Source: a bacterium (GTDB lineage Bacteria; JAMCPX01). From it: a stretch of DNA of 22,239 nucleotides. The stretch is taken from contig JAJYJX010000014.1 of NCBI GenBank assembly GCA_021789095.1, positions 1 through 22,239 of the forward strand, in the 5' to 3' direction. The translations under genes and the position numbers were made by a program. The stretch's first letter is position 1. Each line of letters begins with the position of its first letter. The notes beneath the pieces were generated by a model. It saw only the letters and a list, made by a program, of their open reading frames with translations. It was not told the origin of the DNA and made no database searches. Shown here one piece after another: positions 1,135 to 14,779 of this stretch.

Positions 1135-2169
1135 TCAGGCTTCCGCAAGCGGCAGTGTTACCACAAAACTTGAACCTATACCGAACTCGCTTATGACCTG
1201 CAGCTGACCGGAATGGGCCTGTATAAGCCTTTTTGCTGTAAGCACCTCTATATAAAGCTTTTCTTCATCCTTGAGATGTGAAAAGGTGTGCTTGTCGGTA
1301 ATGTTTTCGAATATGGATTCTGCAGTGCCCATTCCTGTATTGGCAATAGACAGTATCAGTGATGCTCTGTTATCCACGTCATCGTTTTTGACATCTATGT
1401 ACAGGACATCCTTTTCATGATTTTCCTTTATTGCAAGGCTCAGCAGGTTTATCAGTCCCTTTGTAAATTTTTCCCTGTCGAGCTTTACCGTAGCGCTGGG
1501 ACTTTTATACGCAGTGTAAAGTATAACGCCCTGTTTCTGGGCATACGTCTCTATGCTTCTTACACATGATTTTACAACTCTTACCGCGTCCGCATCTTCT
1601 AACTCCAGATTCAGGACGCCGGCTGTCAGCTGGTTTATGTCAAGCAGTGTTTCAAGCGCATTCATCAGCAGCTTTGCCGATTCCTTTGCCTGGTTGGAGT
1701 AGTCTTCATCATCCTTTAGTATCTGCCTGTTATTAAGCAGGTCGTACAATGTGTAAATGGGGTCCTTAAGTTCATTTATCATCATTGATGTAAGCTCGGA
1801 CCTCTGTATCAGCAGGTGCTCTTCCACTGTTGTATCAAGCATGTTCAGTATAAAACCCGTGTATTTTTCCTCTACAGTAATCGGGGATATGCCGAGCTTC
1901 AAAAACTTGTTTTTTTCCTCTATATGTATTCTCACAGGTGTGCTCCCCTGCTTTACCTTTTCTATCGATGCTGAGATTTTTTCCCAGTTTTCCTTGGAAA
2001 AGATATTTGATACGGGTGCATCGATCAGGTCTCCCAATTTTTTGCCGAGAAATTTTATGGCGGAAGGGTTGACATACACGATGTTGTAGTTTGAATCGGC
2101 TATTATAATCCCGCTGTCCACAAATGCCAGCAGTGTTTTTATCTTTTTGAACAGCTCCGTGGCCTGCAT
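1135..2169 (-). CDS. PAS-domain protein with degenerate histidine-kinase core (pseudokinase)
   Basis: This 344-residue cytoplasmic protein has no signal peptide or membrane segment. Residues ~8-115 form a PAS domain (GIIIADSNYNIVYVNPSA is its typical start). Residues ~122-185 match the dimerisation/phosphotransfer helices, but where the family has SHELRTPL it reads INELKDPI, so the phospho-acceptor His is Asn132. Residues ~225-342 match the HATPase_c fold with its usual end (GSSFVVTLPL), yet every ATP signature is altered. The N-box is N241-L-L-S-L245 with the Mg-coordinating Asn lost. The G1 Asp is Asn277 (NTGMG). The G2 GLGL stretch is replaced by residues ~304-311, KLYIEVLT. It is the last gene of the chaperone operon, 2 nt after the TPR gene. 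Inference: a signal-sensing scaffold rather than an active kinase. Confidence 0.85.
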   Translation of the reverse strand: MQATELFKKIKTLLAFVDSGIIIADSNYNIVYVNPSAIKFLGKKLGDLIDAPVSNIFSKENWEKISASIEKVKQGSTPVRIHIEEKNKFLKLGISPITVEEKYTGFILNMLDTTVEEHLLIQRSELTSMMINELKDPIYTLYDLLNNRQILKDDEDYSNQAKESAKLLMNALETLLDINQLTAGVLNLELEDADAVRVVKSCVRSIETYAQKQGVILYTAYKSPSATVKLDREKFTKGLINLLSLAIKENHEKDVLYIDVKNDDVDNRASLILSIANTGMGTAESIFENITDKHTFSHLKDEEKLYIEVLTAKRLIQAHSGQLQVISEFGIGSSFVVTLPLAEA

Positions 2170-2171
2170 AA

Positions 2172-2753
2172 TCAGAACCCCGTAATTCCAAGCTTGGTAA
2201 GCTTGTAAAACCTTTTCATGAGTTCAAACCTGTCCACCGTGCTTATCGTTTGCATAATCTCCTCCATGCTCGAATAACCGTCTATCATGGAAATGATATA
2301 CCCGTCAGACTTATCAAGGTTATATTTTACAATATCCTGCTCCTTTATGTTCAGTTTGGGCACCTTTTTAAAGTTATAGAGCTCTTCGTTGTAAATTTTG
2401 ATGAGCTGGGCCTTTACAAGGGAGATATAAGCCATGATCTGCCTGTTTGATGAATAATCTTTTTCTACAAGATGTTCAAGAAACTCGTAAGCAAGTTCGA
2501 ACCTGCGGGATTTCAAGAGGTCCCTGATATAATTTATATTTATGAATTCAGCATCTTTTGTGGTTACCCTGTGTACTTCTGCAGCTTTCTGTTCGCCCGT
2601 GTATCCGGCTGATTGAATATAGTCAATGGCCTTCTGATTGTCCGGATCAATCTCCAGCACCTTACGCCATAGGATGATCGCATCATCGGTCTTGCCGTAA
2701 CCGTAGAGTGTCAGGCCGTCTTCCAGTAATTTTTCAATATCTTCCGGACTCAT
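2172..2753 (-). CDS. TPR protein with C-terminal winged-helix-like module
   Basis: This is a 193-residue cytoplasmic protein. Residues ~5-40 are a canonical TPR (GLTLYGYGKTDDAIILWRKV, then DPDNQKA). Residues ~70-120 are helical and could form a second repeat-like unit. Residues ~133-193 form a module (YIISMIDGYSSMEEIMQTIS... to LTKLGITGF) that matches, in pattern, the N-terminus of the J protein encoded first in the operon (VLSLIDGKTSANEIAKVTGF... then KLSKMDAVEI). Such SLIDG segments look like small winged-helix-type interaction domains. Its start overlaps the stop of the Hsp70 gene in an ATGA, and its stop is 2 nt from the pseudokinase gene, so translational coupling is likely. Probable role: adaptor between Hsp70 and the PAS protein. 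Function not established. Confidence 0.8.
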   Translation of the reverse strand: MSPEDIEKLLEDGLTLYGYGKTDDAIILWRKVLEIDPDNQKAIDYIQSAGYTGEQKAAEVHRVTTKDAEFININYIRDLLKSRRFELAYEFLEHLVEKDYSSNRQIMAYISLVKAQLIKIYNEELYNFKKVPKLNIKEQDIVKYNLDKSDGYIISMIDGYSSMEEIMQTISTVDRFELMKRFYKLTKLGITGF

Positions 2754-4327
2754 TGTTCTTTAAGCTCTACCTCGAGCGATGACATTTTATCTTTCATTTC
2801 CCGTATTTCTTCTTCGCTTAACCTGCTCTTTGCCTCCAGGGTAACGGTTTGCTCTGTTCCCAGGTCTGCATCCTTTGCGGTTACTTTCAGTATCCCTTCG
2901 CTGTTCATGTCAAAGCCGACCTCGATGTTTGGCTCACCCTTCTTTGCAAGCCGTATGCCTCCGAGAACGAACTCCCCGAGCAGTTCATTGTCATTTGCCA
3001 TCTTTTCATTGCCCTGATAGACCGATATCCTGACGGCATCCTGGTTGTCATACGTTGTCGTAAATTTGCGTGTTTTTGTTATAGGGACCGGTGTGTTCTG
3101 GGGTATAATCTCCGTGAATGCGCCGCCCTTTGTCTGGATACCAAGTGACAGTGCAGTAATGTCAACGAGAATATTGGATGGAAGAGGAGATCCAATGTTA
3201 TAGGCGTGTATAGCTGCTCCCTCCGCAACAACTTCATCAGGATTTATACCCCTGTTTGGCTGTTTACCGAAGAATTCCACGACCTTTTTTATTACAAGCG
3301 GCGCCCTTGTTTGTCCTCCCACAAGGATTACTTCATCGATGTCGTCTTTCTTGAGCCCGGCTCCTTCAAGTGCATTCTTGCATGTCTGGATTGTCTGATC
3401 TATCAGGTCAATCATGAGGTCCTCCACCTTGTTGCGCGTTATGACTGTATTGTAATGAATAGCACCGTGGGATGTTTCCGTTAAAAAGGGCAGGGAGATC
3501 GTAGCTTCGGTCTGTGTTGACAGTTCGATCTTCGCCCTTTCAACAGCGTCTTTTAGTCTTTGCATGGCCATAACGTCATCTTTCAAGTTTATGTTGTGTG
3601 TTTTCTTGAAGTCTTCAAGAACGGAATTAATAATCCTGTTGTCGATATCCTCTCCCCCGAGATACGTATTGCCGGCCGTTGACAGCACCTCGTATACACC
3701 TTCGCCGAGTTCAAGTATTGAGATGTCGAAGGTGCCACCTCCGAGGTCGTAAATAGCTATGAGTTCGTTTTTCTTGCCTCTCTTCTGTCCGTATGCAAGC
3801 GCCGATGCTGTCGGCTCGTTTATGATCCTTAAGACCTTAAGCCCTGCGATCTCCGCAGCATCTATTGTGGCCTGCCTCTGGTTTTCATTGAAATAGGCCG
3901 GCACGGTTATGCACGCGCCCTCTATGCTGTTTTCAAGAAACCCTTCTGCAACCTTTTTTGCTTCAAGCAGTATGGCGGCGCTGACCTCCGGTATGCTCAT
4001 AATCTTGCCCCCGCATTTGACCCTTGCATCACCATGGGGGCCTGCTACCACCTCATACGGCAACTTGTCTTTGGCAATTTTAACCTCTCTGGAGTCGTAT
4101 CTCCTCCCGATGATCCTTTTTGCCGCAAAGATGGTGTTTTTGGGGTTTGTTATGGACTGTCTCTTTGCCCTGACACCAATAAGGGTTTTTTCGTCCTGGG
4201 TAATGGCAAAATAACTGGGTATAAGCCTGTTTCCTGTTGATGACGGTATTACGAACGGCTTACCGCCGATTGTTGTTGCCACACAACTGTTGGTGGTACC
4301 GAGATCTATACCTATTGTTTTTCCCAT
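2750..4327 (-). CDS. Hsp70/DnaK-family chaperone lacking the C-terminal lid
   Basis: The protein is 525 residues against roughly 640 for housekeeping DnaK. The N-terminal ATPase domain (~1-380) is intact: GIDLGTTNS at 6-14, K70 in AAKRIIGRR, E171 in NEPTASALAYG, the DLGGGTFD loop with D194 and T199, and VGGQTRAP at 336-343. These key residues fall at the same numbers as in E. coli DnaK. The interdomain linker reads NILVDITALSLG instead of VLLLDVTPLSLG. A beta-sandwich substrate domain follows (~390-500), then the protein ends ~25 residues into the first lid helix (SRLSEEEIREMKDKMSS...). The helical lid and any EEVD-like tail are missing; the gene ends normally in an ATGA overlap, so this is not a visible frameshift. 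It lies 2 nt after the J-protein gene, its likely dedicated co-chaperone. No grpE is seen. Specialised DnaK paralogue; client unknown. Confidence 0.93.
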   Translation of the reverse strand: MGKTIGIDLGTTNSCVATTIGGKPFVIPSSTGNRLIPSYFAITQDEKTLIGVRAKRQSITNPKNTIFAAKRIIGRRYDSREVKIAKDKLPYEVVAGPHGDARVKCGGKIMSIPEVSAAILLEAKKVAEGFLENSIEGACITVPAYFNENQRQATIDAAEIAGLKVLRIINEPTASALAYGQKRGKKNELIAIYDLGGGTFDISILELGEGVYEVLSTAGNTYLGGEDIDNRIINSVLEDFKKTHNINLKDDVMAMQRLKDAVERAKIELSTQTEATISLPFLTETSHGAIHYNTVITRNKVEDLMIDLIDQTIQTCKNALEGAGLKKDDIDEVILVGGQTRAPLVIKKVVEFFGKQPNRGINPDEVVAEGAAIHAYNIGSPLPSNILVDITALSLGIQTKGGAFTEIIPQNTPVPITKTRKFTTTYDNQDAVRISVYQGNEKMANDNELLGEFVLGGIRLAKKGEPNIEVGFDMNSEGILKVTAKDADLGTEQTVTLEAKSRLSEEEIREMKDKMSSLEVELKEQ

Positions 4328-4329
4328 GA

Positions 4330-5436
4330 TTACTTAAGCATGCTTTTCAGTTGTTTTATCTCGGTTTTAATATCATCCGTTTTTCCGCCTAAAGCCATGG
4401 TCTGTTCATATTCAAATACAGAACTTTTAACAAGCCCGGCCTTTTGGTAGATTTTGGCAAGAAGAAGATGATAGTCAGGGTTTTTAGGATCAAGCGCAAT
4501 TGCTTCCTGACAGTACTGCTTGGCTTCTTTCAATGACTGGTTAAAATCATGCATGACCAGGGCAAGCTTGTAGTATACATGTTTTTTCTCATGAGCCATC
4601 TCTAAAGCGGACTTCAGGAAATCTATTGCATCCTGTGGTTTATTTAACTCTATGCTTATATCTGCCTTCTTTAACAATTCCTGGTGCCTTTCGACCTTCA
4701 TGTATTTTTCTGTTTCTTTCAATTTATCCATGTAGTCCTTCTCATAAGGGTTGTACGAGTTTGCAAGTTTGAAGTTCAGGTAAGCAGTTGCATAATTACT
4801 CTTCATGAACGCTTCCATACCAATCTTGTAGTATGTTCTCGCCTTTTTGACCCTTTCTCTTATCTGGTCAGTCATGGCGCTGTGTGCCGGTTCCTGCTTT
4901 GCTTGCTGCTGGGGTTTTATAACAGTGGTTTCAAATTTAGCTGAAGAAGATTGCTTTGCTGTTTCAGGTTCTTTCTTCGGGGCCTTGTTTTTAAGCGTTT
5001 CATAGGCCTGCTGAACCTTTTTATACAGATCTACCAGAAAATGCTTATCCTCGGCAGGCACTGATCTTGCATAGTAGCTGTCAGGATGGAACATCTTTGT
5101 CTTTTCAAAGTATGCCTGTTTAATCTGCTCCACGTTCGCATTTTCTGAAACACCGAGGATTGTATACAGATCTGCGTTCTCATAAGACATGTAAAGCTCT
5201 TTTATGGATTGTCCGCCCGATTTTGCCTGTTCTGTTTCTCTGTGCTGGATTTCGACTGCATCCATTTTGCTTAATTTCTCAAGGGTCTTGTTAACAGTAG
5301 CCAGACCAAAACCTGTTACTTTTGCTATTTCGTTTGCTGAAGTTTTGCCGTCAATAAGTGACAAAACAAGGCTTTCCTGTTCTGTTAGCCCCGGGAGGGT
5401 ATGTATATTTTTAATAAGCCTGGGTACGTAATTCAC
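4330..5436 (-). CDS. J-domain co-chaperone with N-terminal winged-helix-like and C-terminal TPR domains
   Basis: This 368-residue protein is the first gene of the operon. Residues ~1-65 form a small helical, winged-helix-like module (VLSLIDGKTSANEIAKVTGF). Residues ~88-150 are a J domain starting DLYTILGV, with the essential HPD tripeptide at 117-119, so it should stimulate Hsp70 ATPase. A Lys/Gln/Ser/Pro-rich linker covers ~151-190. Residues ~195-365 hold about four TPR units (YATAYLNFKLANSYNPYEKD; KPQDAIDFLKSALEM; LKEAKQYCQEAIALDPKNPD). No Gly/Phe region or zinc-finger domain is present, so this is a class C J protein and not DnaJ. The start is GTG at 5436; there is no Shine-Dalgarno and the promoter places the transcript start on this codon. 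Next in-frame Met is residue 58, inside the first module, so the GTG start is favoured. Confidence 0.9.
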   Translation of the reverse strand: MNYVPRLIKNIHTLPGLTEQESLVLSLIDGKTSANEIAKVTGFGLATVNKTLEKLSKMDAVEIQHRETEQAKSGGQSIKELYMSYENADLYTILGVSENANVEQIKQAYFEKTKMFHPDSYYARSVPAEDKHFLVDLYKKVQQAYETLKNKAPKKEPETAKQSSSAKFETTVIKPQQQAKQEPAHSAMTDQIRERVKKARTYYKIGMEAFMKSNYATAYLNFKLANSYNPYEKDYMDKLKETEKYMKVERHQELLKKADISIELNKPQDAIDFLKSALEMAHEKKHVYYKLALVMHDFNQSLKEAKQYCQEAIALDPKNPDYHLLLAKIYQKAGLVKSSVFEYEQTMALGGKTDDIKTEIKQLKSMLK

Positions 5437-5442
5437 AGCCTA

Positions 5443-5470
5443 TTTATAATAAGCTTATTATTTTTGTCAA
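5443..5470 (-). promoter_or_regulatory. sigma-70-type promoter of the J/Hsp70/TPR/pseudokinase operon
   Basis: Reading the minus strand, a consensus -35 TTGACA (5465-5470) is followed by a 16-bp spacer and -10 TATAAA (5443-5448). Counting 7 nt past the -10 box gives a start at about 5436, the G of the GTG codon, implying a leaderless mRNA. The -35 box coincides with the TGTCAAG that begins the adjacent IS relic. Confidence 0.75.
5446..5461. promoter_or_regulatory. perfect 16-bp palindrome, candidate operator
   Basis: ATAATAAGCTTATTAT is a perfect inverted repeat that fills most of the spacer and overlaps three bases of the -10 box of the chaperone operon promoter. A dimeric repressor bound here would block RNA polymerase. 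It is AT-rich, so chance is possible, but its symmetry and position make an operator plausible. Confidence 0.45.
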
Positions 5471-5485
5471 GGCGGCGAATCGAGT

Positions 5486-5537
5486 CATGTAAAATCTAAC
5501 CATAGGGGGTATCATCTTGCCATGTAAAAATCTAACC
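5486..5537 (+). repeat. left-end repeated motif pair of the IS relic
   Basis: Two direct copies, CATGTAAAATCTAACC (5486-5501) and CATGTAAAAATCTAACC (5521-5537), are separated by 19 nt containing TATCATCTTG. They mirror the pair at the right end and are probably transposase binding sites. Confidence 0.8.
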
Positions 5538-5595
5538 GAAAAGTACAGCTTCCAGTAAGGATGTTATAGCCTGCCTTTGATGAAGGAGGCAGGTT

Positions 5596-5832
5596 ATGGG
5601 GTTAGCATTTAATATGAAGTACATAGAAAAGGTTCATAATAGATACTTTACAGCTTCTAAGGCATCAAGGGGCAAGATCCTCGATGAATTGTGCGACGTG
5701 TGCAACTATAATAGGAAATATGCCATCTGGAAGTTACATCATTTCTCTTTACAAAAGCATGGCAAACGTCGTGTTAAAAAGAGGGGGGACGTAGGGGTCA
5801 CCCATTTTTCTTATTTTGTTGATTACTTTTAA
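5596..5832 (+). pseudogene. IS transposase, N-terminal fragment
   Basis: The ATG at 5596 follows a good AAGGAGG Shine-Dalgarno. The first ~65 residues are recognisable as the start of an integrase-core transposase: MKYIEKVHNRYFTASKASRG, KILDELCDVCNYNRKYAIWKL, then a basic stretch KRRVKKRG. After that the sequence turns into an unrelated tail (GDVGVTHFSYFVDYF) and stops. The helix-turn-helix part that should lead to the catalytic core is lost, so the gene cannot make an active enzyme. Confidence 0.75.
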
Positions 5833-5991
5833 GGATTATGTCTTAATGAGCAAAGTGGCGGCGGCCTCAGTCAAGTGAAAATAATCATATTGTTTATATA
5901 GTATTTTGGTAAAAAAGGGTGTGGTGCTCATCCTTTAAAGGAAACGATGGAGAAGAATGAATGGACACTTTAATAGAGATATAAAAAGGAC

Positions 5992-6225
5992 ATGCTCCTC
6001 ATCTACCGATGGCTTGTAACACAGGGAGCAAAGGGAGTGGGGGCGTCAGCCGTGATGTATGGACGAACCAAGCCCGGCACACTGTTAAGACATCATATTC
6101 CGGTAAAATGTGACCACTGGGATGTAAACAGTCCCGGATTTGTAGAAATAGACCTTGTGTCCCATTCCGGGGAATGTGCAACAGGCGAGTTTATTTATTC
6201 TCTCAATCTTATTTCAGCCCGCTAA
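5992..6225 (+). pseudogene. IS transposase, catalytic-core fragment
   Basis: Residues ~22-72 of this frame match the start of the rve/DDE core of the same transposase type: YGRTKPGTLLRHHIP, DHWDVNSPGFVEIDLVSHSG, then GEFIYSLNL. The first catalytic Asp is in VEIDLV (residue 54 of the frame). Homology ends at SLNL and a stop follows; the second Asp and the Glu are absent. The residues before YGRTKPG do not look native. The AT-rich 5833-5991 stretch between the two fragments holds several stops and no recognisable transposase sequence; it may be a nested insertion remnant. Confidence 0.75.
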
Positions 6226-6367
6226 GGTCACACAGAAGTCACCGCAGAACACAGAAAAGCTATCAGAAATTGAGAAACAGATTATTCATGCTATAACTGA
6301 AATCTTTGGTATAAACGTATATATCAGGAATAAGAAAGGAGAGCTTATTGCCCCAGACCATGGTTAG
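6226..6367 (+). pseudogene. possible transposase C-terminal remnant, other frame
   Basis: In a different frame from the catalytic fragment, the sequence reads PAKVTQKSPQNTEKLSEIEK and continues with ITEIFGINVYIRNKKGELIA to a TAG at 6365-6367. The stop lies inside the inner right-end motif (GGTTAGATTT), as expected for a transposase ending at the IS edge. I do not recognise the segment itself, so the assignment rests on position. Confidence 0.35.
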
Positions 6368-6414
6368 ATTTCTGTATGACAAGATGATACATGTTTCGGT
6401 TAGATTTTTACATG
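6362..6414 (-). repeat. right-end repeated motif pair of the IS relic
   Basis: On the minus strand the outer copy CATGTAAAAATCTAACC (6398-6414) is identical to the inner left copy. The inner copy CATACAGAAATCTAACC (6362-6378) has diverged. The 19-nt spacer again contains TATCATCTTG, so the two ends share one design. Confidence 0.8.
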
Positions 6415-6556
6415 GCTTGACAGGGGAGGAGAGAAAGTTTGGCTGTTTGGTGTGTAATTTTCAACGTCATGCCTGTGATGTTTTACGCAGTTAGATTCGC
6501 TTTAACGGGCTTAATAAAATCTTGCACATGTTTGCGGATGCTGCCGAAGCCTTCGT

Positions 6557-6585
6557 TTGACAAAAATAAATTATAATTATATATG
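6557..6585 (+). promoter_or_regulatory. promoter of the substrate-binding protein gene
   Basis: The -35 TTGACA (6557-6562), a 17-bp AT-rich spacer and -10 TATATG (6580-6585) predict a start near 6592, only 3 nt before the ATG. No Shine-Dalgarno is present. TATAAT at 6572-6577 is too close to the -35 to pair with it. The first 13 bases, TTGACAAAAATAA, are identical to the start of the chaperone-operon promoter. Confidence 0.6.
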
Positions 6586-6594
6586 TGTTAAACA

Positions 6595-7539
6595 ATGTTG
6601 ATAAGACATAAATTATTTTATAAAGTTATTGCTGTCATAACAACATTTGTTTTTGTTTCGTCCGCATGGGCAGTAGATGTTGCAATTATTAAAACACGTA
6701 ATCTTGCACCATACAACGAAGCTATAACCGGGTTTACCATTAACTGCAGCGCCATAAAAACAAAGGAATACGATATGGAGGAGAACCAGGCGCGCGGACA
6801 GGAGATTGCAGCACAGATCAACAATAGCAAACCCTCAGCCGTGCTTGCTGTAGGTGCCCCTGCAGCACAGATAGCAAAGCTGTATATAGATAAATCAATC
6901 CCGATCGTATTCATAATGGTCCAAAGCCCTGAGAAAGTGGGGCTGAATGATGTGGACAATATGACGGGCATATCCCTTAACATCCCTGTTCAAACACAGC
7001 TTCGCGCGTTGAAGGCGCTTGTTCCTGCTGTAACAAAGGTTGGTGTGATATACAATCCCAAGAATACGTCAAATGAGGTACGGGAAGGAATGACGATATC
7101 CAGCCAGCTCGGGTTCAGGCTCATAGCTGCAAAGGTGGATACACCCAATGACGTTACAAGGGCATTAAGGGCGTTCGCTGAAGGCATTGATGCCTACTGG
7201 ATGCTGTCCGATATAACGGTCATGCAGGCATTTGCAACAATCCTTAATTATACGAACGACAGGAAAATACCGTTTCTTGCATCGTCAAAGGTGATGGTTG
7301 ACAGAGGTGCGCTTGTTTCACTCGCACCGAACTATGCAAACATAGGCAACCAGGGCTGCAGTATTATAAATCAGGTAATAGGCGGTACAAAACCGTCCCA
7401 GCTGCCAATCTCACCCCCCAAGGGACTTGAACTTACGGTAAATCTTACTGCAGCCAAAACACTCGGTTTACAGAGCATTGCAACAAATGCCATGACGTTT
7501 GCGGCTACGGAAGGCTATAAGATCAGCATATCCCAGTAA
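6595..7539 (+). CDS. periplasmic ABC-transporter-type substrate-binding protein
   Basis: This is a 314-residue protein with a Sec signal: MLIRHKLFYK, a hydrophobic stretch, then SSAWA with likely cleavage before Val27. The mature part matches the ABC_sub_bind family (PF04392 type). It has a periplasmic-binding two-lobe pattern with VDVAIIKTRNLAPYNEAITGF, then PSAVLAVGAPAAQIAK, KSIPIVFIMVQSPEKVGL, NMTGISLNIPVQTQLRALK, KVGVIYNPKNTSNEV, RKIPFLASSKVMVDRGALVS and ANIGNQGCSIINQVIGG. Members bind small solutes (some bind tryptophan or tyrosine), but the ligand here cannot be read. No permease or ATPase gene is adjacent, so it is an orphan component. The ATG start lacks a Shine-Dalgarno and is predicted to be near-leaderless. 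Phosphohexomutase follows after 28 bp, perhaps on the same transcript. Confidence 0.85.
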   Translation: MLIRHKLFYKVIAVITTFVFVSSAWAVDVAIIKTRNLAPYNEAITGFTINCSAIKTKEYDMEENQARGQEIAAQINNSKPSAVLAVGAPAAQIAKLYIDKSIPIVFIMVQSPEKVGLNDVDNMTGISLNIPVQTQLRALKALVPAVTKVGVIYNPKNTSNEVREGMTISSQLGFRLIAAKVDTPNDVTRALRAFAEGIDAYWMLSDITVMQAFATILNYTNDRKIPFLASSKVMVDRGALVSLAPNYANIGNQGCSIINQVIGGTKPSQLPISPPKGLELTVNLTAAKTLGLQSIATNAMTFAATEGYKISISQ

Positions 7540-11996: not shown

Positions 11997-13169
11997 ATGC
12001 TTGACAGAAACAAGATCAAAAAAGATGCAGAGCATTACCTTATAGATGGCAGCTATGAAAAGGCCATAGAAGAGCTGGTCAAACTTTCCGTAATAGAAAC
12101 GAATGACCCGTGGGTCTGGAGTTCTCTTGCAGAATGCTATTCAAACACAAATGAAGCTCAGAAGGCCGCAAAAAACTTCATGACGGCATACAAGAAGTTC
12201 CTGCAGCAGAATGATTTACAGGCAGCACTATCAGCTCTGGAACGTGTAGTATCGGTCGATCCTGCAAACAAAGAGGCAGAAGAAGAAAGAAACAAACTGC
12301 TGAAAAGGCTTTCAAGGGGGGAAAGCAAGCCTGTTGGGGGGGGTGTCAAAAAGATACCCATTTTCTCGGAGATAGAGGAGCAGGAATTGAACGCTATACT
12401 CAAGATCGCAAAAAACCTTACGTTCCCCCAGGATTCAACAATAATAAAGGAGGGCAGTAAAGGCGATTCTATTTATTTTATCATATCCGGCATAGTAAGT
12501 GTTTCCAAAAAAGACAAGGGCGGCAAAGATGTCATGCTTGATACGCTTTCGGACGGTGATTTCTTCGGGGAATTCGGGTTTTTTACAGGCGGCAGACGGC
12601 AGGCCACTGTCGTATCTGCAAGTTCAGTGGATCTTTACGAATTCAAAAAACAGGACATGGAGGATGTTGCACAGAAACACCCGAATGTGTCAAAGGTCCT
12701 GGTTGAATTCTACAAGAAAAGGATCCTTGACAACATAATTGCACTTACACCGGTTTTCAGCAGCCTTAACTACAGTGAAAGGTCGGATATCATAAACAGG
12801 TTTGAGCTTATGGTCGTTGAGCCGGACAAGGTTATAATAAAAGAAGGAGATCCCGGCGATGCCATGTATGTGGTCAAGGACGGGCTGCTGCGGGTAAGTA
12901 CAAAGGACAGCAAGGGCAAAGAGGTCGTACTGGCGCAGCTCGGGGAAGGCGACATTTTTGGAGAGGTCGCCTTGTTCACAGGCAAACCCAGGACCGCGAC
13001 TGTAAAGACTCTGAAACAGAGCAGGTTGATGAAGCTTAAAAAAGATGATTTTCAGGATATTGTCGATAAATACGAGTCTGTAAAATCAAGGGTATTTAAG
13101 ACAATAGATGAAAGGGCTGAGGATACGGTCAGGCATTTGTTTTCACAGGACAAAAAAGGCCATAAATGA
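11997..13169 (+). CDS. TPR protein with tandem cyclic-nucleotide-binding (CNB) domains
   Basis: This is a 390-residue cytoplasmic protein. Residues ~8-95 hold two to three TPR-like repeats (YEKAIEELVKLSVIETND; SSLAECYSNTNEAQKAAKNF; AALSALERVVSVDPANKEA). Two CNB domains follow, ~122-240 and ~252-370. Each has a phosphate-binding cassette: FGEFGFFTGGRRQATV (E192, R200/R201) and FGEVALFTGKPRTATV (E323, R332). The second is close to the textbook cAMP-type pattern; the first is slightly divergent. There is no DNA-binding domain, so it is not a CRP-type regulator. The layout recalls a regulatory subunit that docks partners through TPRs. The gene overlaps the HD-GYP gene by ATGA, suggesting a joint complex or pathway linking cyclic mononucleotide sensing to c-di-GMP turnover. 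The ligand is not proven. Confidence 0.88.
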   Translation: MLDRNKIKKDAEHYLIDGSYEKAIEELVKLSVIETNDPWVWSSLAECYSNTNEAQKAAKNFMTAYKKFLQQNDLQAALSALERVVSVDPANKEAEEERNKLLKRLSRGESKPVGGGVKKIPIFSEIEEQELNAILKIAKNLTFPQDSTIIKEGSKGDSIYFIISGIVSVSKKDKGGKDVMLDTLSDGDFFGEFGFFTGGRRQATVVSASSVDLYEFKKQDMEDVAQKHPNVSKVLVEFYKKRILDNIIALTPVFSSLNYSERSDIINRFELMVVEPDKVIIKEGDPGDAMYVVKDGLLRVSTKDSKGKEVVLAQLGEGDIFGEVALFTGKPRTATVKTLKQSRLMKLKKDDFQDIVDKYESVKSRVFKTIDERAEDTVRHLFSQDKKGHK

Positions 13170-14779
13170 CTGTACAACAGTCCAAGAGCAGGGCAAAAGA
13201 GCTTATATTCCTGAAAAAGTTGCTGTCGATATACGGCGATTTGCCCAGACAGAGGATCAACACAGGTATTATAAATAAACTGTATAACGAGCTTCTCGGT
13301 CTCATAACGGGAGAACTCGCATGTGATGCAGGCAGTTTGTTTGTTATAGACAGAGAAACCGGCTCTCCTGTTTTTACCGCTGTCAAAGGAGGGGATGAAA
13401 GTCTTGTAGGCAAAAAACTTGAAAAAGGAAAAGGGATTGTCGGGAAGGTAGCGGATACAGGAGCAGGATACCTTGCAAAGGATGCGTCAAAGGATCCGGT
13501 ATGGATGGGGGAGGTCAGTTCGGGCAAGGGATTTGCGACAACCGATATAATGGCATGCCCCATAAAGTACGGTAACGATGTTATAGGGGTTATAGAAGTC
13601 TTGAATAAGAAAAAGGGCATGTTCAACAGGCAGGATATGAAAAGGCTTTTGCAGTTGTCCCCGCATATATCCGTATTCATGAAGTATCTTATAGACGAGC
13701 TTGAGCAGCAGAGGTTTATTAATATGCAGACGAGGCTGTATGAGCTGTCAATGCTGCTTAATTCCAACCTTGACACAAAGGCTATTGTCACGAATGCAAT
13801 AAAGGCAATTGTTTCACTTGTACATGCGGATGTAGGGTCGCTCCTGCTGGTAGACAAGGAAAAACAGGAGCTGTTCTTTGAAGTTGCACTCGGTGACAGC
13901 GAGAAGGTATTAAAGGAGATGCGCCTGAAGTTCGGTCAGGGCATAGCTGGCTGGGTTGCACAGCAGAAAAAGCCCCTTGTTGTTAATGATACATCAAAGG
14001 ATGAGAGGTTTTTCAAAAAGGCCGATCAGAAAACAGGGTTTGTGACGAAAAACATTCTCTGTGTGCCGGTGCTGTCAAAGGGAGAGGTGATTGGCGTAAT
14101 ACAGGCCATCAACAAAAGTGATGGACTGTTTACAAAGCGCGATCTTGAACTGCTGACATCGCTGGCTGATCAGGTCGCCATTGCACTTGAGAATGCATCC
14201 CTTCATGAAGAACTGAAAAGAACATTTCTCGAGGTCGTTGAATCTCTTGCAGAGGCTATTGAGAAAAGAGACCCGTACACAGGGGGACATACCAAGCGCG
14301 TTGTGAAGTATTCGCTTATGATCGCAGACCAGATGGGCATTGAAGGGGATGAAAGGGACAGGTTGAAGATGGCAGCACTGCTTCACGATGTAGGCAAAAT
14401 AGGCATTGATGATAGCATACTGAGAAAGCCTGCAATCCTTGATGATGCGGAGTTTGAAAAGATGAAGGAACATCCGTCCATAGGTGCCGACATACTCGGA
14501 AAGATTCCGCAGATCAAGAATATCATTCCAGGCATACTTTATCACCACGAGTGGTACAACGGCAGAGGTTATCCTGATGGGCTTTCAGGGCAGTCATTGC
14601 CTTTGGTTGCACGGATAATCTCCATAGCAGACACCTATGATGCAATGACAACGGACAGGCCTTACAGGAAAGCCCTGACACCAGAGTTTGCACTTGCAGA
14701 ACTGAAAAAATTTTCGGGCACGCAGTTCGATCCAGCATACGTGGAAGCATTTGTAAAAGCCTTTGAAAAACAGAAGTAG
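13166..14779 (+). CDS. GAF-GAF-HD-GYP cyclic-di-GMP phosphodiesterase
   Basis: This is a 537-residue cytoplasmic protein. GAF1 covers ~35-175 (CDAGSLFVIDRETG, KGKGIVGKVADTG, IMACPIKYGNDVIGVIEVLN), GAF2 covers ~190-345 (ADVGSLLLVD, FGQGIAGWVAQQ, ILCVPVLSKGEVIGVIQAIN), and the HD-GYP domain covers ~352-537. The HD-GYP core is complete: GGHTKRVVKYS, LLHDVGKIGI (H407-D408), HPSIGADIL, YHHEWYNGRGYPDGL (GYP at 468-470) and ADTYDAMTTDRPYR. This family degrades c-di-GMP with a metal centre. The GAF pair probably senses a small molecule or cyclic nucleotide, but their ligands cannot be read. The start ATG overlaps the stop of the TPR/CNB gene, so the two are translationally coupled. Confidence 0.93.
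   Translation: MTVQQSKSRAKELIFLKKLLSIYGDLPRQRINTGIINKLYNELLGLITGELACDAGSLFVIDRETGSPVFTAVKGGDESLVGKKLEKGKGIVGKVADTGAGYLAKDASKDPVWMGEVSSGKGFATTDIMACPIKYGNDVIGVIEVLNKKKGMFNRQDMKRLLQLSPHISVFMKYLIDELEQQRFINMQTRLYELSMLLNSNLDTKAIVTNAIKAIVSLVHADVGSLLLVDKEKQELFFEVALGDSEKVLKEMRLKFGQGIAGWVAQQKKPLVVNDTSKDERFFKKADQKTGFVTKNILCVPVLSKGEVIGVIQAINKSDGLFTKRDLELLTSLADQVAIALENASLHEELKRTFLEVVESLAEAIEKRDPYTGGHTKRVVKYSLMIADQMGIEGDERDRLKMAALLHDVGKIGIDDSILRKPAILDDAEFEKMKEHPSIGADILGKIPQIKNIIPGILYHHEWYNGRGYPDGLSGQSLPLVARIISIADTYDAMTTDRPYRKALTPEFALAELKKFSGTQFDPAYVEAFVKAFEKQK

Follow-up and report, generated by a model that had tools for sequence, protein, structure and literature searches.

A bacterial operon joining a lidless Hsp70 and its J protein to a putative TPR/winged-helix adaptor and a PAS pseudo-histidine kinase

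Gene content of the operon

The window, that is, the whole stretch of 22,239 nucleotides that we analysed, carries at positions 1135-5436 an operon of four minus-strand genes, here called J, K, T and P in order from the promoter and operon A as a whole. Their coordinates and tight packing are those reported in the initial annotation, with 2 nt between J and K, a 4-nt ATGA overlap between K and T, and 2 nt between T and P. One strong promoter had also been proposed, and this part of the description stands with some reservation: a probable promoter (5437..5473, minus strand) with TTGACA and TATAAA elements at 16 nt spacing can be recognized by eye, and a TTGACA...TACAAA pair lies at the equivalent place in five relatives of one genus, but the consensus promoter scan of the window does not list it because the scan accepts just T as the final base of the -10 element. 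The start codon of J lies a few nt past the -10 element and the transcript is possibly leaderless. The -35/-10 spacer holds a 16-bp palindrome, ATAATAAGCTTATTAT, which we considered as an operator and dropped, as relatives do not conserve it. Between J and the gene at 6595, positions 5500-6590 contain short repeated stretches (catgtaaaatctaacc) and a transposase-like frame start near 5597, with no long ORF, and are probably an IS remnant adjoining the operon promoter. There is no grpE in the window, its absence from the operon having been noticed before, and the single copy found in the genome lies beside another dnaK on contig C32. This genome encodes three further Hsp70s, one of them within a paralogous J-K-T operon (operon B). 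A scan of the four proteins of operon A for membrane-like segments found none.

J (4330..5436, minus strand; 368 aa, GTG start) is a class C J-domain protein, as only the J domain of the DnaJ family matches it (Pfam E 3.5e-11, HPD at residue 117), with no G/F or zinc-finger parts, and TPR profiles match its C-terminal region; its orthologs in relatives are 54-64% identical. T (2172..2753, minus strand; 193 aa) has a TPR/helical N-terminus with one weak TPR by profile match, and its predicted structure (pLDDT 83) consists of helical repeats followed by a winged-helix-like C-terminus. The initial annotation was right about the TPRs of J and the adaptor-like TPR of T but overlooked the domain that the two proteins have in common: the winged-helix-like residues 1-67 of J are homologous to the last 70 residues of T (hhalign probability 97.5%, E 5.5e-12), and five control comparisons were all negative. 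A search of the PDB for the fold of T returned just generic TPR matches, none with E < 0.001, and was set aside. On contig C56 of genome G000 (30444-30632; L023 1495-1686, minus strand) we observed a 68-aa frame, approximately 61-68% identical to residues 122-191 of T and with an internal deletion, which is by its sequence a decayed copy of the C-terminal domain of T.

K (2750..4327, minus strand; 525 aa) is an Hsp70 in which the NBD, the hydrophobic linker (ILVDIT) and SBD-beta are intact, and in which helices B-E of SBD-alpha and the tail are absent. It covers positions 2-519 of the 599 of the Pfam HSP70 profile and stops approximately 20 residues into helix A of the lid. Its ATPase and its contact with J look intact because the phosphate, adenosine and J-contact motifs GIDLGTTN, AAKRIIGRR, RIINEPTA, DLGGGTFD and VGGQTR are all kept, in agreement with the first description of an Hsp70 with intact ATPase residues and no lid. 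Against the NCBIfam models K scores 666 bits for PRK00290 (cut-off 648) and 652 bits for TIGR02350, below the cut-off of 822. The length is 523-527 aa in all operon A and operon B orthologs, in genome G022 of another phylum and in locus L172 of genome G196, and 605-620 aa approximately in Myxococcota, with some 77 residues after the LLGEF motif (within the clade marker NELLGEFVL) in the lidless proteins against about 150-165 in Myxococcota. A sequencing error or a pseudogene can be ruled out, since the ortholog lengths are equal and the ATGA coupling is kept; the lid loss is genuine. As K of Myxococcota has the lid, being lidless does not belong to the core function. Genomes G047 and G192 of a third phylum each contain five or six Hsp70-like frames, several of only 500-540 aa or so, and lids may have been lost, or proteins truncated, more than once.

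P (1135..2169, minus strand; 344 aa) combines a PAS domain with a degraded histidine-kinase core, and the dead core that had been claimed for it was borne out. Its H-box reads INELKDP, with Asn at 132 in place of the His in all seven orthologs, and in other T-linked P proteins this position is Asp (G192, G324), Glu (G047) or Arg (G022). Compared with the intact kinase of genome G360, which belongs to a more distant T-P pair, the catalytic second Asn of the N-box is Leu, Asn replaces the G1 Asp, and the glycine loop of G2 is deleted. With the phospho-accepting His, the N-box Asn, the G1 Asp and the G2 loop all gone, activity of P as a kinase was ruled out. The dN/dS values of P and K were 0.04-0.07 where dS was unsaturated, values that are rough, since for P they come from two pairs with a measurable dS of 2-2.5; P is constrained despite its dead core. 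The structure model of P was poor (pLDDT 55), too low for a fold search. In G360 a weak T-like frame overlaps the gene of the intact PAS histidine kinase (L104 2675-4248), which is a possible living relative of the active ancestor of P; we kept this T-P pair only as a possible outgroup because no K-clade Hsp70 was seen in G360.

Distribution and phylogeny of the module

The window's phylum was sampled with nine genomes including the window's own, and acid-mine drainage would be the habitat of several relatives to judge from their isolate names. Operon A is intact in G001, G003, G004 and G006. In G002 a simple gene caller took the wrong frame over J, which was recovered by search and HMM. The operon is split or partial across contigs in G007 and G008, with P not seen in G008, and a search of G005 (84% complete) did not reveal it. 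Operon B, with the order J'-K'-T'-argG-mreB-mreC-mreD-mrdA-rodA as far as contigs reach and without P, was seen in all genomes of the phylum but G008, where T' was not found; the copy of the window's genome lies on contig C162 (L046, 1-9152) and those of relatives at L048, L051, L052, L054 and L055. The end of a KH-domain gene (khpA-like, by eye) lies directly upstream of J' in several genomes. In G022, the sole genome of its phylum that we examined, J-K-T-P-argG-mreB-mreC-mreD-mrdA-rodA form one run and there is only one K. The third phylum has the T-P pair in all three genomes (G047, G192 and G324), and in G047 and G192 a K-clade Hsp70 and J stand away from it beside argB or argD (neighbours by eye); no K-clade Hsp70 was found in G324 (87% complete).

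To examine the distribution of K more widely, GTDB species genomes were scanned with a K segment only, ignoring neighbours; the T alignment held no stretch conserved enough for a query. The counts below rest on 80 listed of 296 confirmed matches from a scan that is biased to close relatives of K, and gene calls in GC-rich genomes are based on profile matches. Among the matches listed, J is present in 64 of the 68 loci with enough upstream DNA, T lies downstream in 67 of 70, and the J-K-T run is complete in 54 of the 59 with both flanks, mostly from Myxococcota. At some 30 ordinary dnaK control loci T was absent, except for one locus that is itself operon B. The Myxococcota loci encode a full-lid K within J-K-T and without P. 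At one of them (L167) the order is xerC-hslV-hslU-argB-argD-argF-J-K-T-argG, with some genes assigned by eye, and hslV, hslU, argD and argF were confirmed by profiles beside J in two further Myxococcota loci.

K is 52% identical to E. coli DnaK, 40% to HscA and 36% to HscC. In the Hsp70 tree the 17 K sequences form one clade with support of 100/100 among the DnaK-type proteins; E. coli DnaK, HscA and HscC fall outside it, the latter two apart on long branches. Within the clade operons A and B are sisters and G022 comes next (supports 93/86 and 93/84). Members of the K clade, accompanied by a J protein and an adaptor of their own, occur in at least four phylum-level groups, and three phyla have all four parts.

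The initial annotation had made its proposal depend on the four genes staying together elsewhere, and here the outcome was divided: the J-K-T run and the co-occurrence of the four parts speak for it, but P is optional. A recent chance assembly can be ruled out, as relatives keep all four genes and the J-K-T run recurs; that relatives keep them and that the rough dN/dS of P and K is low indicate that the operon is not due to chance. Because most J-K-T loci lack P, P is not needed for the core. In the simplest history, the ancestral module would be an old J-K-T by arg genes, in the xerC-hslVU-argBDF...argG neighbourhood, to which P was added later by joining T. A four-gene operon by argG-mre, as in G022, would then have been duplicated in the window's phylum, copy B losing P and copy A moving away with it, so that the four-gene operon there coexists with a P-less copy joined to mreBCD.

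Relation to described systems

A 2021 review distinguishes three kinds of bacterial Hsp70, namely DnaK, HscA and HscC (PMC8215388). HscA/HscB and HscC/DjlB/DjlC resemble K in having a dedicated J protein in the locus and no local grpE (PMC8215388), and the E. coli hscC locus also carries the Sel1-repeat gene ybeT. In contrast to these systems, however, K is of DnaK type and forms its own cluster, HscC keeps its lid, J of the window has TPRs and no membrane segment, and no iron-sulphur genes lie at the operon. As a system the K clade seems to have escaped notice, though its probable Myxococcus member has a knockout phenotype. In G395, a genome resembling that of Myxococcus, 218 kb separate K from a DnaK-like gene, which fits the distance between MXAN_3016 and MXAN_3192 (176 genes apart at approximately 1.24 kb per gene), so that the Myxococcus ortholog of K is probably MXAN_3016, judged by genomic distance rather than by sequence. 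Without MXAN_3016, sporulation and oxidative resistance fall whereas swarming and predation stay normal, and in E. coli at 37 C the gene fails to substitute for dnaK (PMC8265645); the main text of that paper studies it alone and does not mention an operon, TPRs or a J domain. This type of Hsp70, by its presumed place in the clade, is like K in having J upstream, T downstream and no C-terminal tail, and unlike the window's K in keeping a full lid, as it is unlike operon A in having no P. SglK (MXAN_6671), a separate Hsp70 of the same genome, is like K a specialised non-heat-shock bacterial Hsp70, yet it rescues E. coli dnaK and is needed for social motility (PMC8265645).

Natural loss of the SBD-alpha lid together with work alongside an own J protein is known for Ssz1-Zuo1 (RAC) of yeast (PMC7083937). 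Ssz1, however, does not hydrolyse ATP, whereas the catalytic motifs of the lidless K are intact, so that K is not an ATPase-dead protein of that sort, and Ssz1-Zuo1 has neither T nor P. The closest parallel for P is DivL of Caulobacter, in which a PAS and histidine-kinase fold has been repurposed as a sensor or allosteric partner (PMC4211667); DivL acts on CckA/DivK to regulate the cell cycle, whereas P has T and a chaperone as its gene partners. Our literature search for a bacterial J/TPR/Hsp70 operon without a lid gave nothing fitting.

Proposed mechanism and its rivals

There is good support for the composition and linkage of J-K-T-P, whereas we infer the sensing step and the clients. Because the parts recur in distantly related bacteria, the four proteins probably form a single functional device. 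The reading that we prefer, with moderate confidence, is a dedicated Hsp70/J system with T as docking adaptor, to which a T-bound PAS pseudokinase has been added as sensor. J, with its observed HPD, would recruit K and trigger its ATPase, the J-contact and catalytic motifs of K being observed likewise. By analogy, the lidless K would bind and release clients fast, remodelling or briefly holding a defined partner rather than carrying out bulk refolding. We propose this fast-cycling role because lidless DnaK and Hsc70 behave so in the literature: kon and koff for peptide are 10-100-fold faster in lidless DnaK, a figure cited in PMC7083937, and a lidless nematode Hsc70 retains ATPase activity, has a stronger hold on its J protein and no longer refolds (PMC3315512). 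For Hsp70s that serve few clients, co-evolution with special JDPs and independence from a nucleotide exchange factor have been proposed (PMC8215388). As J and T have a homologous domain, they probably dock on a common partner or on each other, which would place K at the client. P, the constant gene partner of T, probably senses either a signal in the cytoplasm or the state of a response regulator, which it would pass via T to J-K by conformation and not by phosphate.

The PAS pseudokinase had previously been taken as client or sensor. Since P is optional, being absent from Myxococcota and operon B, and T-P forms a pair of its own apart from J-K in one phylum, P is more likely a T-attached regulator than an obligate client. 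A more specific version, in which the PAS pseudo-histidine kinase, via the TPR/winged-helix adaptor, switches the lidless Hsp70/J pair on a specific client, is at present tentative. If true, the output of a two-component-type sensor would be an ATPase that remodels proteins, in place of a response regulator. The window's version of the module adds two uncommon features to the clade, an Hsp70 that is naturally lidless yet intact in its ATPase and a partner that is a dead kinase, and thereby makes testable both the working mode of a lidless Hsp70 and the gating of a chaperone by a kinase relic.

Other readings of the same operon have to be weighed against the proposed T-bound sensor. P could be a reverse sensor in the manner of DivL, its dead core binding a phosphorylated response regulator, with T-J-K as output or assembly chaperones and PAS as the coupling module. 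The PAS-DHp-CA order is retained in P although the His has given way to N, D, E or R in four lineages, and DivL is itself a kinase turned to a new use, sensing whether a response regulator is phosphorylated (PMC4211667); operon A, however, has no response regulator, and P contains a single PAS domain and lacks a membrane segment, so that we regard this reading as unlikely. Alternatively, the module may be merely an extra general stress DnaK/DnaJ set of a bacterium from acid mines, T and P just happening to be co-transcribed with it. The DnaK type of K, its 52% identity to E. coli DnaK and its score above one NCBIfam DnaK cut-off agree with this, as do the effects of its probable Myxococcus ortholog on oxidative resistance and sporulation (PMC8265645). 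The K clade is nevertheless its own and well supported, the gene order is fixed across phyla, the lid is lost, a general DnaK and grpE lie elsewhere in the genome and the probable Myxococcus ortholog does not replace E. coli dnaK (PMC8265645), which makes an extra general set very improbable.

The gene neighbourhood raises the question of the client, and none is indicated inside operon A itself. The full order xerC-hslV-hslU-argB-argD-argF-J-K-T-argG at L167, with parts of it at L244, L192, L270 and L271, could be the ancestral place of a module serving HslUV quality control or the arginine enzymes; operons A and B do not adjoin hslUV, though, and the neighbours may be historical and are swapped in two phyla, and we find this service rather improbable. 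We give about as little credence to K chaperoning the assembly of MreB/MreC/PBP2, with operon A as a copy under PAS control. The J-K-T-argG-mreB-mreC-mreD-mrdA-rodA order in two phyla (with P in G022) is what favours such elongasome service, but argG intervenes between module and mre, operon A lies away from mre, and the module adjoins arg or hslVU genes, not mre, in Myxococcota and in two further lineages. The adjacency to mre as functional proof is weakened by these wider arg and hslVU neighbours. Because neighbours change between phyla, neither HslUV nor the arginine enzymes nor the elongasome is strongly favoured as client of the Hsp70/J pair.

Elsewhere in the window, a small lipoprotein-like gene (506-883, LSAGC signal) lies convergent to P, and a similar 128-aa gene occupies the equivalent position in L047 (12927-13313). 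At 11997-14779 a TPR protein with two cyclic-nucleotide-binding domains is followed, with a 4-nt overlap, by a GAF-GAF-HD-GYP protein (domains by eye), a possible second-messenger pair.
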